Source: Sedimentibacter sp. MB35-C1 (GTDB lineage: Bacteria; Bacillota; Clostridia; Tissierellales; Sedimentibacteraceae). From it: a stretch of DNA of 64,000 nucleotides. The notes under the pieces are model-generated. The model had not been told where the DNA came from. It made no database searches and worked only from the letters and a program-made list of their open reading frames with translations. Of this stretch, positions 7,731 to 55,225 are shown piece after piece (position 1 is the first letter of the stretch; each line of letters starts with the position of its first letter). The stretch lies in assembly GCF_030913635.1 (NCBI RefSeq), contig NZ_CP133188.1:1-64000 (forward strand), read 5' to 3'. Made by a program: the position numbers and the translations under genes.

Positions 7731-7945
7731 AAAAATTAACCGCCTCTAAATCAAGAGGCGGATTTCCGCGGTACCACTCTAATTGCTGCAATTATTTGCA
7801 GCATCTCATTCAAATAAGGGGATTTCCCTTTGGGTTGTTACTCCCAAATACTCCGAGACGGGTTCGATATACAGAGGGCCAAAAACCTTTCACCAATCAG
7901 TTTTCTCTCTATTGCCATGTAAGTTCTACTGCTTCTCTTCATCGT
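7731..7945 (-). ncRNA. T-box riboswitch leader of proS (tRNA-Pro sensing)
   Basis: On the minus strand the conserved T-box AGAGTGGTACCGCGG lies at 7766-7780. It is followed by a terminator stem CCGCCTCT/AGAGGCGG (7740-7761) and a T run. Upstream is a Stem I-like region; CGAACCCGTCT near 7856-7866 contains a CCC/CCG proline codon that could be the specifier. The family reads uncharged tRNA and prevents termination when proline charging is low, which suits the gene downstream. The exact specifier is inferred. Confidence 0.92.
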
Positions 7946-7964
7946 AAATATTTATTTATAACTC

Positions 7965-30929: not shown

Positions 30930-31670
30930 TTACTCAATTTCATCCTTTTTATTTTTTCTCTCAACAACTGATGCGAAAATTACACCCACCTCAAACAACA
31001 GTATCATAGGCAGCGCCAATAACGACTGTGTTATAATATCCGGCGGAGTAAGCAATGCTGCTACTACAAATATAATCAAAATTGTATATTTTCTATTTTT
31101 CTTAATAAAGCTTACTTTCAGTATATGGAATTTTGTCAGAATAACCATTAAAATAGGAAGCTCAAATATTAATCCAAACGACAGCAGTGTATTGATTACA
31201 AATGACAAGTAATTGCTGAAGCTGATCATTTCATCAATCTGTTCTATCTCAAATCCCATAAAGAACTGAAGCATTATTGGAAGTACCACAAGATATGCAA
31301 ATACAACACCTAGAATAAAAAACATACCTCCTACAAACAACGAAACCGCAATTGTTTTTTTCTCACTTTTTGTAAGTCCCGGACTTACAAAAAGCCACAG
31401 CTGAAGCATCAAAAACGGAGCTGCTATAACTAACCCTCCGATTACCGCAATCTTCACATATGACAGCAAAAGTTCTGCGGGAGCTATAAATACAAAATTG
31501 ATTTCAGGAGCAATATCTATTATATGCTTAACTACTACTTCCGCAAAATTATAAAATATAAAGACAGCTGCTATAAGAACAACACTTGAATAAATAAGTC
31601 TTTTCCTAAGCTCGGATAGATGCCCTACCAGCGTTAAATTTCTCTCATTTTTTTTATTTTTTTTTCTCAT
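30930..31670 (-). CDS. tatC: Sec-independent (Tat) translocase subunit TatC
   Basis: The six-helix core of the twin-arginine translocase, 246 aa. The family N-terminus LVGHLSELRKRLIYSS includes the signal-peptide-binding region; FVFIAPAELLLSYVKIA and ELPILMVIL and AALLTPPDIITQSLLALP follow in order. It is 16 bases after panE and probably co-transcribed. The only TatA in the window is at 55 kb, next to a Tat-type selenoprotein. No TatB is seen, as is usual in Firmicutes, where TatA-TatC suffices. Confidence 0.95.
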   Translation of the reverse strand: MRKKNKKNERNLTLVGHLSELRKRLIYSSVVLIAAVFIFYNFAEVVVKHIIDIAPEINFVFIAPAELLLSYVKIAVIGGLVIAAPFLMLQLWLFVSPGLTKSEKKTIAVSLFVGGMFFILGVVFAYLVVLPIMLQFFMGFEIEQIDEMISFSNYLSFVINTLLSFGLIFELPILMVILTKFHILKVSFIKKNRKYTILIIFVVAALLTPPDIITQSLLALPMILLFEVGVIFASVVERKNKKDEIE

Positions 31671-41593: not shown

Positions 41594-44500
41594 TTATAAA
41601 ATCTCTTCAATAAACTTTGTTAAAATCATTGCTGATTCTCCACGTGTTACCACATCACCCGGTGCTAACATTTTATTGTTTCTGCCCTGTAACAAGCCTG
41701 CAGAAACTGCCCACTCCATTGCAGAGTTACTCCAGTCAGCAATTTCATTACTGTCATTGTATGAACTCAAATCACTTCCAACTGTAGTATCTATTCCTTT
41801 GTACTGAGCGTAACGGTATAGTATGACAATCAGCTGCTCCCTTGTCAGCTTCTCGTTTGGAGCAAAGAAATCGTCGGTGAGGCCCTTAACAATATCAGCG
41901 TTAGCTGCCCATGCAACTCCATCGCCGTACCATGATTTATCTTGCACATCTTTAAAAGACGGAGAACTGTTTATTTCAGGATTATTTTCATAGCGGTAAA
42001 GCACAGTTACAAGCATAGATCTGGTCATGGTGTAATCAGGAGCAAATTCATCGTCGGATACTCCACAAAATAGACCATTTGCAATTACAAAATCAATACT
42101 GTTTTTTGCCCAGTGGTCATTAATATCCGCAAATTTACCTGTATTGATTTTTTCTTTAAATATTACTTCTACACTGTGATCTTTATCATCAGAGAATTCA
42201 TAGGAATTTAAAGCACCCACAGAGTTTCCGTCAATAATTAAATCAGCTATTTCATATCCTTCATCAGGTACTATATTTACAGTTCTATTATCAACGGATA
42301 TTGCTACCTTCCCGCCGAGAGTTTCTTTTGGCAAAACAATACCCGGTGTTTTCGCAGTTGACGAACCCTTGTGGCTTCCACTGCTGCTTGATTTACGATA
42401 AATAATATTATAGGATGCGGAATCCGGGAAATCTAAGTGATTTTTATTACGAGTATACAAGTTAATCTTACCGCTTGATTCAAAGCCTGTATTATGATCA
42501 AAAGCAGTTGCATCTAACTTTTCCAGGCTTTTAGGAAGATAAACTTCTTTTAAAAGACTTACAGCGAAGGCTTCAGACCCGATTTCCTCTAATCCCTCAT
42601 TAAGTACAAGCTTCTCCAAACGGATGGCCTTTGTTGTACCGGAAAACGCCCTGTGTCCTAAGACTTTAACACTGCCCGGTATTTCCAATTCCTTGATTTG
42701 ATGATAGTAGAACGCTCCCCTTCTGATTTCCGTAACAGAATCAGGAATGTCCAGACTTTTCAACTGAGCACCATTGAACGCATATTCGTCAATTATCTCT
42801 ACGCCCTGTGGGATGTCAATGTGCTGCAATGTAATGTTGCGGGCAAATAAACCTTTTGGAATCACCTTCATATTATCGGGCAGAGTAACATCTGTCAGCT
42901 TGTTGGTGGAAAATGCACCTTCTTCAATGTTGGTAATAGTCTCCGGAATAACGAGCTTTTGCAGCTTATTACCATTAAAGCATTGCAGCTTTAAAGTAGT
43001 TAAAGTGTCGGGGAATTCAACAACTGTTAAATTATTATATTGAAAAGCTCTTTGCTCAATAACTTCCAGATATTTCGGTAACACAACCTTGTTCAAACCG
43101 TTAGGAGAAATAATCTCTTCTTTTATTATATCATAATCGTCTGGAACAAATGCATTCTGACCTATTATTGTAATCTTCTCTCCCTCAAGATTCAGATCGG
43201 GTAAAACTGCATATCTATATAATACAGCTTTTGCTTTTCCTTCTTCTGAAAAGCCCATTAAAGTTGTTCCGTCATAAATAAAATCTTCTGCTGTCCACAG
43301 TTCTTCCGTACTATAAAATATTATCTCATGGCTTTTCTCATCTGAAGAAAAATCTTTATGAGCTTCATTTGTGGTGTAAACACGCACACAGCCTGAATTA
43401 TCAACAAAACTTTTGCTGTCTAGTGCGGTAACGCTGCTTGGAAGATCCACTCTTGTCAACAGATTTTTATTAAAAGCCCCTTTAGCGATGGTTGCCAATC
43501 CTTCATTAAGATTTAGGGATTTCAAAGTTTTAAAATTTCCATCCCCTTCAAATGCATTTCTATCAATATATTTAACATTTCCCGGAACAGTCAGCGTATC
43601 CAAGCGGTGCAATTTAAAAGCTGATCTGCCGATTTTCTCCACTGTGGAAGAAATAGCTAAAGTCTTTAATGGGGCACCTGCGAAAGCGTTGCTGCCGATT
43701 TCCTCTACTCCTTCCGGTATCTCAAGATTTGTTAAAGTCGTATTGGAAGTAAATGCTCCTGTCGGAATCACTTTTAATTTATGATTTATCTCCAGTGTCG
43801 TCAGTTTATTAACCCCAAAAGCACCAGCACCCATTGTTGTTAAATTTTCCGGTAATGTCAGTGCTGTAATTTTATTGCTGTTGAAAGCCAGAGCTCCTAT
43901 GTGCTCCAAAGACTGCGGAAATGATAGTTCCGTAAAATTATTATACCTAAAAGCATTGTTTCCTATTGACTGCAAATCCTTTGGAAAAACTACGCTGGTA
44001 AACCCGTCGGGAGAAATAACTTCATCGTCACTAAAATCAGCTTCCACCTCAAAGGCATTGTCAGCAATTCCTGTAATTTTCTCACCTTGCGGGCTTATAT
44101 CAGGCAATACGAGAATTTTATTAGAGATCGCTTTTGTTGTTCCGGATTCAGACAAACCTGTAATTTTTCCTTCTTCATATGTAAAGTCATTTACTTCCCA
44201 CTCATCTGAATATTCTGAATCCCTCAAAATCAATTTTTGATAAGGAACAGGATTTGTTCCGCCAATGCGTGAAATACGGTCATTGTTAAAATGGTTGGCA
44301 TTTGAAGTATACATATAAACAATGCCGGAGCCGTCTGTAGATGAAGGTTCCATGCCAGGATTGTTCAGAAATGCGGTACCTGCTAACTTTTCTACTCTAT
44401 ATGGAAGGACAAATGATTTTATATTGTTATCATAAAAAGCATTTCCGTCTATTTGAATTTTTTCTTTTGTATCTGCAATAGTCAAAGAAGCAATTTCATT

Positions 44501-54187: not shown

Positions 54188-54216
54188 TTGATATATTTTA
54201 AATTTTAGATTATAAT
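54188..54216 (+). promoter_or_regulatory. promoter of the selenoprotein gene
   Basis: TTGATA, 17 bases, TATAAT, 43 bases before the ATG. Confidence 0.75.
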
Positions 54217-54259
54217 TATTATATAGTTTTAACATACTACTTATATTAGGAGAGTGAAT

Positions 54260-54916
54260 ATGTCAGAAAACAAACAGATATCAAGGAAAGAATTCATCAA
54301 AAGCATGGGATACACGGCAGCAGGTGTAGTTGCAGCCGGTTCGTTAGGCGGACTTCTTACAGGTTGCTCAACTTCTGCACCAGCAGCAGATGTTGATACT
54401 TCTCAGGCTCCAGAGTTTCCATGGCCTTATAAAAAGCTTGACCCTGCAGTAGTAGAGGCGGCAGCTTTTCAAGGATATAAAGAAAAGGGTGGCTGAGGCT
54501 CCGGAGTGGCTGAAGGTTTCTTCGGCGTATTATCTCAAGAAGTAGGATATCCATTCAATCAAGTTCCTGTAGCAGCATTTACAAATTTTGGAGCAGGATT
54601 CCAGCAGGCCGCATTATGCGGATCTGTAGGAGCAGCAGCACTATGTCTTGGAACTGTTTGCGAACCAGATGTAGCTAAAAAACTACTAGGAGAATTGGAA
54701 AGCTGGTATAAAGAAGCTGAACTTCCTATATACCAACCGGATATTAAATTAGAAACAACTGTTGCAAACTCTATTCTATGTGCAGACTCAGTGGGAACCT
54801 TTATGGAGAAAACAGGAGTCGAAATGGGAAGCGATGAAAGAAAAGCTCGCTGTGCAGGTGTTGCAGCAGATGTAACCAGAAAAATGGTAGAATTGCTTAA
54901 TGCTCAATATGCATAA
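54260..54916 (+). CDS. Tat-type selenoprotein lipoprotein, C_GCAxxG_C_C / split-Soret-like redox family
   Basis: 218 residues with Sec at 79. The frame from ATG 54260 (RBS AGGAG) meets TGA at 54494-54496 and continues in the same frame to 54916. Upstream: a Tat-like signal (SRKEFIKSMG, one Arg-Lys pair in place of Arg-Arg), hydrophobic stretch and lipobox LLTGC36. Downstream: GSGVAEGFFGVLSQEVGYPF, NFGAGFQQAALC120, C129, C134, C174 and C198, as in the C_GCAxxG_C_C family and the N-terminal part of split-Soret cytochromes, where the UGA position is Cys (KGGC-G). No CxxCH haem site. A SECIS-like hairpin follows the UGA. Inferred role: exported selenol/thiol redox protein on the outer membrane face. 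A nonsense mutation in a pseudogene is much less likely. Confidence 0.9.
54497..54526 (+). promoter_or_regulatory. bacterial SECIS-like element
   Basis: Twelve bases after the UGA, GCUGAAG (54509-54515) pairs with CUUCGGC (54520-54526; one G-U) around the loop GUUU. The distance and size match the SelB-binding upper stem-loop of Escherichia coli fdhF (11 bases after UGA, about 17 bases, G and U needed in the loop). Confidence 0.75.
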
Positions 54917-54930
54917 AAAGCAAATTATTA

Positions 54931-54972
54931 AATAAACGAGGATTATTCTTCCTCGTTTATTTAATAATTTTT
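54931..54972 (+). terminator. terminator after the selenoprotein gene
   Basis: AATAAACGAGGA (54931-54942) pairs with TCCTCGTTTATT (54950-54961), followed by TTAATAATTTTT. Confidence 0.85.
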
Positions 54973-55033: not shown

Positions 55034-55225
55034 ATGGGCAGAATTGGAGCACCAGAGTTAATATTAATATTAGCTATTGCATTAATAATTTTTGGTCCTT
55101 CTAAGCTACCCGAAATCGGAAGATCAATCGGCGAAGCTTTTGGACAATTTAAGCGTCATGCAAACAAAGTCTCAGAAGACACTACTACTGAAGCTAAAGA
55201 TTCAGACAACGATAAGAATAGTTAA
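55034..55225 (+). CDS. tatA: Sec-independent (Tat) translocase subunit TatA
   Basis: 63 aa: one N-terminal membrane helix ([15 protein letters not shown]), the hinge [20 protein letters not shown] with the conserved FG and amphipathic helix, and a short charged tail. It forms the pore-lining or membrane-thinning part of the twin-arginine translocase with TatC (encoded at 31 kb). Its location directly after a Tat-type selenoprotein gene suggests that the two are functionally linked. RBS AAGGTGGG. Confidence 0.95.

Follow-up and report, generated by a model that had tools for sequence, protein, structure and literature searches.

A selenocysteine form of the C-GCAxxG-C-C family (PF09719) has already been listed as a predicted selenoprotein (WP_012158890.1) in Table 1 of a 2022 review (PMC9312934), where the entry carries no Sec motif, signal or genomic context. 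The main text of PMC2398784, taken to be reference 64 of that review, does not contain the family name, and among the 12 papers found to name the family or split-Soret cytochrome, PMC9312934 is, judged by title, the only one concerned with selenoproteins. One family member is labelled as putative FeS cluster-binding in a table of PMC8322314. The title of the PDB entry for split-Soret cytochrome c (1H21) names a novel iron centre. The split-Soret genes of Desulfovibrio alaskensis had no fitness effect under the conditions tested in PMC4215793, so that their role may be conditional. In sulfur import, the extracytoplasmic redox protein SoxS has been proposed to hand sulfur to SoxT, a YeeE-like transporter, with TusA as the acceptor (PMC11582611).

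The gene at positions 54260-54916 of the window (the entire 64,000 nucleotide stretch of Sedimentibacter sp. MB35-C1 DNA analysed here) belongs to the same PF09719 family as the listed selenoprotein, and almost certainly encodes a protein with selenocysteine at residue 79. Taken as a whole, the best explanation of the data, which we consider highly probable, is an exported selenocysteine lipoprotein with the split-Soret fold, to which a possible metal site and, more tentatively, a role in sulfur or selenium uptake can be added. An earlier note on this DNA had regarded a selenocysteine form with such a signal as undescribed. The selenocysteine form as such was already on record as a prediction; the record has neither Sec motif nor localisation. 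Literature searches combining split-Soret with selenoprotein, selenocysteine with twin-arginine, and Sedimentibacter with selenoprotein did not bring up the lipoprotein form among the matches listed, which mostly do not extend to subscription papers. The exported lipoprotein form, the kinship with split-Soret cytochromes, the recurrent exchange of cysteine and selenocysteine, and the gene module are apparently new. The earlier note does not mention the split-Soret kinship, the second Sec copy or the linkage to Tat and sulfur genes.

The gene and its surroundings

The gene (54260..54916, plus strand) consists of 218 codons and a TAA stop, with 78 codons before the UGA (54494..54496), read as Sec79 in a GG-U-G motif, and 139 codons after it; this reading rests on the translation, the PF09719 match, the homologues and dN/dS. 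The five cysteines that the earlier note had seen downstream of the UGA are borne out by the translation as residues 120, 129, 134, 174 and 198. The PF09719 match covers residues 85-211 (39.9 bits, cut-off 27, E 5.1e-10). In a 28-row alignment, position 79 (U or Cys) is invariant, as are Cys120 (54617..54619), Cys174 (54779..54781) and Cys198 (54851..54853), and the lipobox residue Cys36 is present in 27 rows. The protein contains no CxxC or UxxC motif anywhere, and no CxxCH heme motif.

Upstream, a ribosome-binding site AGGAGAG can be read directly from the sequence at 54248..54254. A promoter-like site TTGATA-17-TATAAT (54188..54216, plus strand) has 11 of 12 consensus matches; however, the consensus scan finds nine such sites in the region versus 4.7 in shuffles, so the promoter evidence is weak. 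Downstream, a terminator-like hairpin of 20 pairs, four of them G-C, was found by the hairpin scan at 54923..54969, in the gap between the selenoprotein gene and tatA, which encodes a Tat translocase subunit (55034..55225, plus strand; PF02416, 64.9 bits). The sole PF00902 match of the genome, tatC, lies in the same window on the minus strand (30930..31670, 204.6 bits). The Rfam scan of the window returned a T-box leader only (7751-7951, minus strand, 109.6 bits).

Reading of the UGA codon

The genome has a complete selenocysteine machinery: selA (624.8 bits), selB (394.9 bits), selD (372.8 bits) and tRNA-Sec (68.2 bits) all score above their cut-offs. The genes selD, selA and selB are adjacent, and the tRNA-Sec gene follows about 5 kb further. 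Within the order, selA is common (171 of 249 genomes), and it is found in all 19 genomes that carry the gene discussed here. The selD gene (L021:5380-6348 and upstream) itself seems to encode a selenoprotein, with a UGA immediately ahead of the called start, in the context KASG-U-AAKIG.

Seventy-four homologous loci span the column of residue 79. It is occupied by UGA in 51 of them (39 tabulated rows, L029 and 11 loci fetched later) and by a cysteine codon in the other 23, and every homologue read that covers the column has Cys or U there. Wherever a TGA occurs inside the domain of the homologues read, it is in this column. The earlier note had placed the single in-frame UGA on a family-conserved cysteine, and had pointed to the sel genes and to alternation of Cys and Sec in homologues as checks on its reading; all of this agrees with what was found, and the TGA at this column recurs in independent genomes.

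A stem-loop that starts 13 nt after the UGA is a credible SECIS element. In the window it lies at 54509..54526, with seven base pairs (GCUGAAG/CUUCGGC) and the loop GUUU, as seen in the comparative stem analysis, RNAalifold and the hairpin scan. A stem of seven pairs at this distance, mostly GCYGAAG/CUUCGGY, is common to the first 40 Sec loci; it is closed by a loop of four bases, the first of which, at +20, is G in all 40. Along the stem, the pairs are kept in 38, 40, 40, 40, 40, 36 and 38 of the 40 loci. In the 37 distinct rows, 96.9% of the 259 cells are paired, versus at most 59.5% in controls with a slid stem. Cells changed on both sides number 8, versus 1.0 in shuffles, and three pairs show double-sided change, which is reached by 16 of 500 shuffles; the number of pair types is not above that in shuffles (117 of 500 reach it). 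RNAalifold picks the same stem independently. Phenylalanine codons within the stem are TTC in 62 of 62 cases, versus 90 of 278 elsewhere in the same genes, a contrast that is inflated by relatedness and for which 16 loci were counted from 50 codons before the UGA. When single sequences are folded, the stem of the window gene does not reach significance (z -1.10) and the best fold differs; for three other loci, z is -2.95, -0.59 and +0.25. Ten of the 11 later Sec loci do not have the exact seven-pair stem, which is present in L137. As candidates in its stead, five have another seven-pair hairpin at almost the same position, and the remaining five have one further downstream. These ten loci (L138-L147) encode split-Soret-like proteins with UGA in the same column, and since other hairpins follow it, their SECIS elements would differ.

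In principle, the UGA could be a true stop, leaving either a broken gene or two short peptides, the second starting for example at the GTG at 54506, and the mechanical list of open reading frames does end one frame at the UGA and resume at this GTG. This reading is very improbable in view of the recurrence of UGA at one column in 51 loci, the conserved and covarying stem behind it, the Sec machinery, and purifying selection downstream of the UGA (dN/dS of about 0.10 to 0.20 against six relatives). A chance frame or a broken gene is rejected in view of the conservation, the selection and the stem. Decoding of the UGA as tryptophan, or by near-cognate suppression, has nothing in its favour other than the open frame, and is hardly conceivable. 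The homologues read have only Cys or UGA in the column, the genome has the Sec genes, and TGA otherwise serves as a normal stop codon in the window, where it terminates 7 of the 37 ATG frames of at least 200 codons; Trp read-through is rejected on these grounds. In the window, a TGA is preceded by 60 or more open codons and followed by 120 or more in two frames. The one other than the selenoprotein gene, at 43782, resembles a shadow frame, as judged from its translation only.

Exchange of cysteine and selenocysteine

Four PF09719 matches are present in the genome. Besides the window gene, they comprise a second Sec copy (2058149-2058799), which is 77% identical to the window protein, a Cys copy (1005651-1006322), which is 47% identical and has GGCC at the site, and a fourth match at 2854872. 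The one close relative with a name is a Sedimentibacter MAG with a 97% identical protein. Of the 249 genomes of the order, 19 contain a match to the protein, with 24 places that have one TGA and four that have none; one of the 24 (L029, at a contig end) also has a TAG. The draw from the class yielded 9 matching genomes of 391, and that from the phylum 56 of 398, own genome included. The remaining TGA-bearing matches of the phylum have U at the column in 11 of 11 cases. The sample of Cys forms is partial, as the phylum matches without a stop are represented by the fetched loci only. Pattern searches gave 20 matches but no relatives in viral contigs, and no relatives in plasmids.

Trees were built without L037 (a duplicate of L023), L029 (contig end, extra TAG) and L075 (a fragment without the column), and the 72-row tree also without L146 (a fragment with an extra TAA). 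In the latter, seven changes between Cys and Sec are needed, of which at least five are forced by well-supported branches. An estimate of only two changes, from a 62-row tree, is superseded by this tree, which also takes in the later loci. Five of the seven heme-less Cys rows, among them the Cys copy of the genome itself, nest within the heme-less Sec clade and thus look like returns to cysteine, while the other two (L089 and L090) fall outside it. As the root is a midpoint root, the direction of the changes is unsure. The presence of heme changes three times, at least once by force of the branches, in a quick tree of 62 rows.

Export

The product is very probably exported via the Tat pathway. 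Its signal, encoded at 54260..54367, consists of the motif SRKEFIK (Arg9-Lys10), a hydrophobic stretch and the lipobox LTGC with Cys36, at which lipidation is predicted; motif and lipobox were also tabulated in the relatives. With a Tat-type signal and a lipobox, the protein would cross the membrane in folded form and remain attached to its outer face. The Tat-like signal and the lipobox of the earlier note are both present, and export is predicted, but the motif has Lys at the position of the second Arg of the twin-arginine motif. Among the relatives, tabulated without the 11 later Sec loci and L029, the 32 heme-less Sec rows comprise 29 with [ST]RK, two with RR and one with neither, the seven heme Sec rows two with RK, four with RR and one with neither, and the 23 Cys rows 21 with RR and two without a motif. 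The Tat profile TIGR01409, at E values up to 1, hits three places in the genome, namely the Cys copy and one other above the cut-off and one below it, and lists neither Sec copy. At about 1958871 (L106:1459-2139), the genome encodes a further protein with a Tat signal and a lipobox, which has ferredoxin-like Cys clusters; a frame of 700 codons comes next.

The distribution of TatC bears on the same question. TatC is found in 31 of the 249 genomes of the order (30 above the cut-off), namely in 17 of the 19 genomes with the gene and in 14 of the 230 without it (Fisher 4.6e-16, a value that ignores kinship, with the 19 genomes coming from two families). The two gene-bearing genomes without TatC are 74% and 70% complete. 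The genome analysed here has both TatA and TatC, and tatA adjoins the selenoprotein gene.

Tat-exported formate dehydrogenases and hydrogenases with selenocysteine are known. The outward-facing location, described as rare in the earlier note, is less exceptional than it seemed, because the same genome also encodes a TtrA-like molybdopterin oxidoreductase with a Tat signal and an in-frame UGA at NSYSHGYS-U-GGS (L107/L108, from about 1057900 onward). The stretch read scores 354.5 bits to TtrA, for which the cut-off of 1750 applies to the whole protein. Its UGA apparently sits at the Mo-ligand position, and this enzyme would apparently give the genome a second type of exported selenoprotein.

Fold and putative metal site

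The structure of the window protein is predicted with a pLDDT of 79.9 and a pTM of 0.81. In a Foldseek search, the prediction matches 1h21_A (E 1.4e-8, TM 0.69, rmsd 2.6 over 172 columns), with the next match at E 1.2. Sequence search returns 1H21 as the only entry (E 1.2e-18), with Sec79 aligned on the Cys of its GCG motif, so that the likeness to split-Soret cytochrome c extends over about 170 residues in both sequence and predicted fold. The best NCBIfam model is that of split-Soret cytochrome c (NF047622, 103.7 bits), at a score below its cut-off of 400. We infer from the predicted structure and the sequence that the window protein has the split-Soret cytochrome c fold minus the heme domain. 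Unlike split-Soret cytochrome c, which has a heme domain with CxxCH sites, it has neither, and, again in contrast to the cytochrome, it would by its lipobox be a lipoprotein. Seventeen heme-bearing Sec relatives (L081-L086, L088, L137-L145 and L147) have selenocysteine in the same column as the window protein, but keep two CxxCH motifs after the domain. By analogy with the split-Soret iron site, the chances are about even that Sec79 and the three invariant cysteines hold an iron (iron-sulfur) centre with selenocysteine as a ligand.

Gene neighbourhoods

Neighbourhoods were compared for 31 Sec stretches of 5.7 to 16 kb, covering 32 of the first 40 Sec loci (the L064 stretch holds two), and for 12 of the 23 Cys loci as controls; L024, L027, L028, L029, L031, L033, L043, L046 and all 11 later loci are outside this set, and the search profiles were built from some of the same stretches. 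A tatA or tatC gene is near in 20 of the 31 Sec and 2 of the 12 Cys neighbourhoods (Fisher 0.007), and tatC in 14 and 1, respectively (Fisher 0.03). A YeeE-like transporter gene together with a TusA gene is found in 11 Sec neighbourhoods, from six families, versus one Cys neighbourhood, an excess that is not significant alone (Fisher 0.13). In the 11 Sec stretches fetched after the pattern had first been noticed, tatA or tatC occurs eight times and YeeE with TusA six times. In ten proteins from these loci, the assignments to TatC, Sulf_transp, TusA and LysR are confirmed by Pfam. In NCBIfam, the transporters come close to YedE/FdhT and TsuA, with scores under the cut-offs. Table 1 of PMC9312934 lists a selenocysteine form of YeeE/YedE. 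In two genes for YeeE-like transporters (L110:5385-6545 and L112:2386-3558), the frame runs into a TGA and stays open for a short stretch beyond it; these TGAs are perhaps ordinary stops.

The module is shared by one Cys form (L131). Heme Sec loci L110, L112 and L123 are linked to tatC, YeeE and TusA, and L113 to YeeE and TusA alone, while three of the seven heme Sec loci with neighbourhoods (L111, L124 and L125) have no tat, YeeE or TusA neighbours. Neither Sec copy of the Sedimentibacter genome itself has YeeE or TusA nearby; a PF04143 match is located at 1.74 Mb. On the strength of the relatives' gene neighbours, a role in sulfur or selenium uptake can tentatively be proposed.

Discussion

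The neighbourhoods and the predicted fold also bear on two alternatives to the reading given above. The signal could engage the general Sec translocon (SecYEG), with the adjacent tatA a coincidence. The Arg-Lys motif of 29 of the 32 heme-less Sec forms, the one form with neither motif by pattern, and the silence of TIGR01409 on both Sec copies all fit this view. In E. coli test proteins, however, Lys in place of the second Arg slows Tat export, but does not block it (PMC1182353). TatC is rare in the order and yet accompanies the gene in 17 of 19 genomes, and tat genes lie nearby in 20 of 31 Sec neighbourhoods, which makes use of SecYEG improbable. The balance is different for the chemistry of Sec79, which could be a metal-free catalytic selenol of a peroxidase-like, disulfide-reducing or persulfide-carrying protein, with another cysteine resolving. 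This remains a serious possibility, if one to which we give less than even odds. According to PMC9312934, the majority of predicted selenoproteins have thiol-based oxidoreductases as homologues, Cys and Sec have been exchanged at the column at least five times, and genes for sulfur handling lie close by in 11 of 31 neighbourhoods. Against a selenol, there is no CxxC or UxxC in the protein, the only solid match of the fold is to a metalloprotein and not to a thioredoxin-like protein, none of the four Cys/Sec positions varies, much as expected of a metal site, and export by Tat suits a cofactor.

In the mechanism that we propose for the exported lipoprotein with a metal site, the protein would fold with its metal in the cytoplasm, and such cytoplasmic insertion of the cofactor would explain the use of Tat. 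The folded protein would then leave by Tat and become lipid-anchored on the outside of the membrane. With an iron centre like the split-Soret iron site, ligated by Sec79 and the three invariant cysteines, the anchored protein would there pass on electrons or sulfane sulfur. It would work on the outer side of the YeeE/YedE-TusA route, which is suggested by the gene neighbours of the relatives, where it would reduce sulfane sulfur, thiosulfate or selenium species, or present them, so that they can be taken up.

Among described systems, the nearest parallel is the proposed presentation of sulfur to SoxT by SoxS (PMC11582611). With respect to YeeE/TsuA-TsuB and SoxT-TusA import as described there, a YeeE-like transporter and TusA are common to both systems. 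The partner of SoxT-TusA is a thiol-disulfide oxidoreductase, whereas here it would be a selenoprotein of the split-Soret fold. Moreover, a direct counterpart of the SoxT-TusA linkage is missing from the window genome, and the transporters of the relatives are below the NCBIfam cut-offs. The full proposal is that selenocysteine has taken the place of a cysteine ligand at the split-Soret iron site, that the lipoprotein bearing it is exported by Tat and supplies a YeeE-TusA importer with sulfur or selenium, and that this ligand position has been swapped between Cys and Sec several times across the split-Soret cytochromes of the phylum. It is speculative and, as a conjunction, rather unlikely to hold in every part.

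Gene callers that halt at UGA would split these genes in two. A predicted, functionally blank selenoprotein family gains a fold, a likely cellular location, a candidate for a metal site and a pathway open to testing. With related paralogs of both the Cys and the Sec type coexisting in one genome, and with the two residues exchanged repeatedly at one column, the family may provide a natural experiment on why cells pay for selenocysteine.
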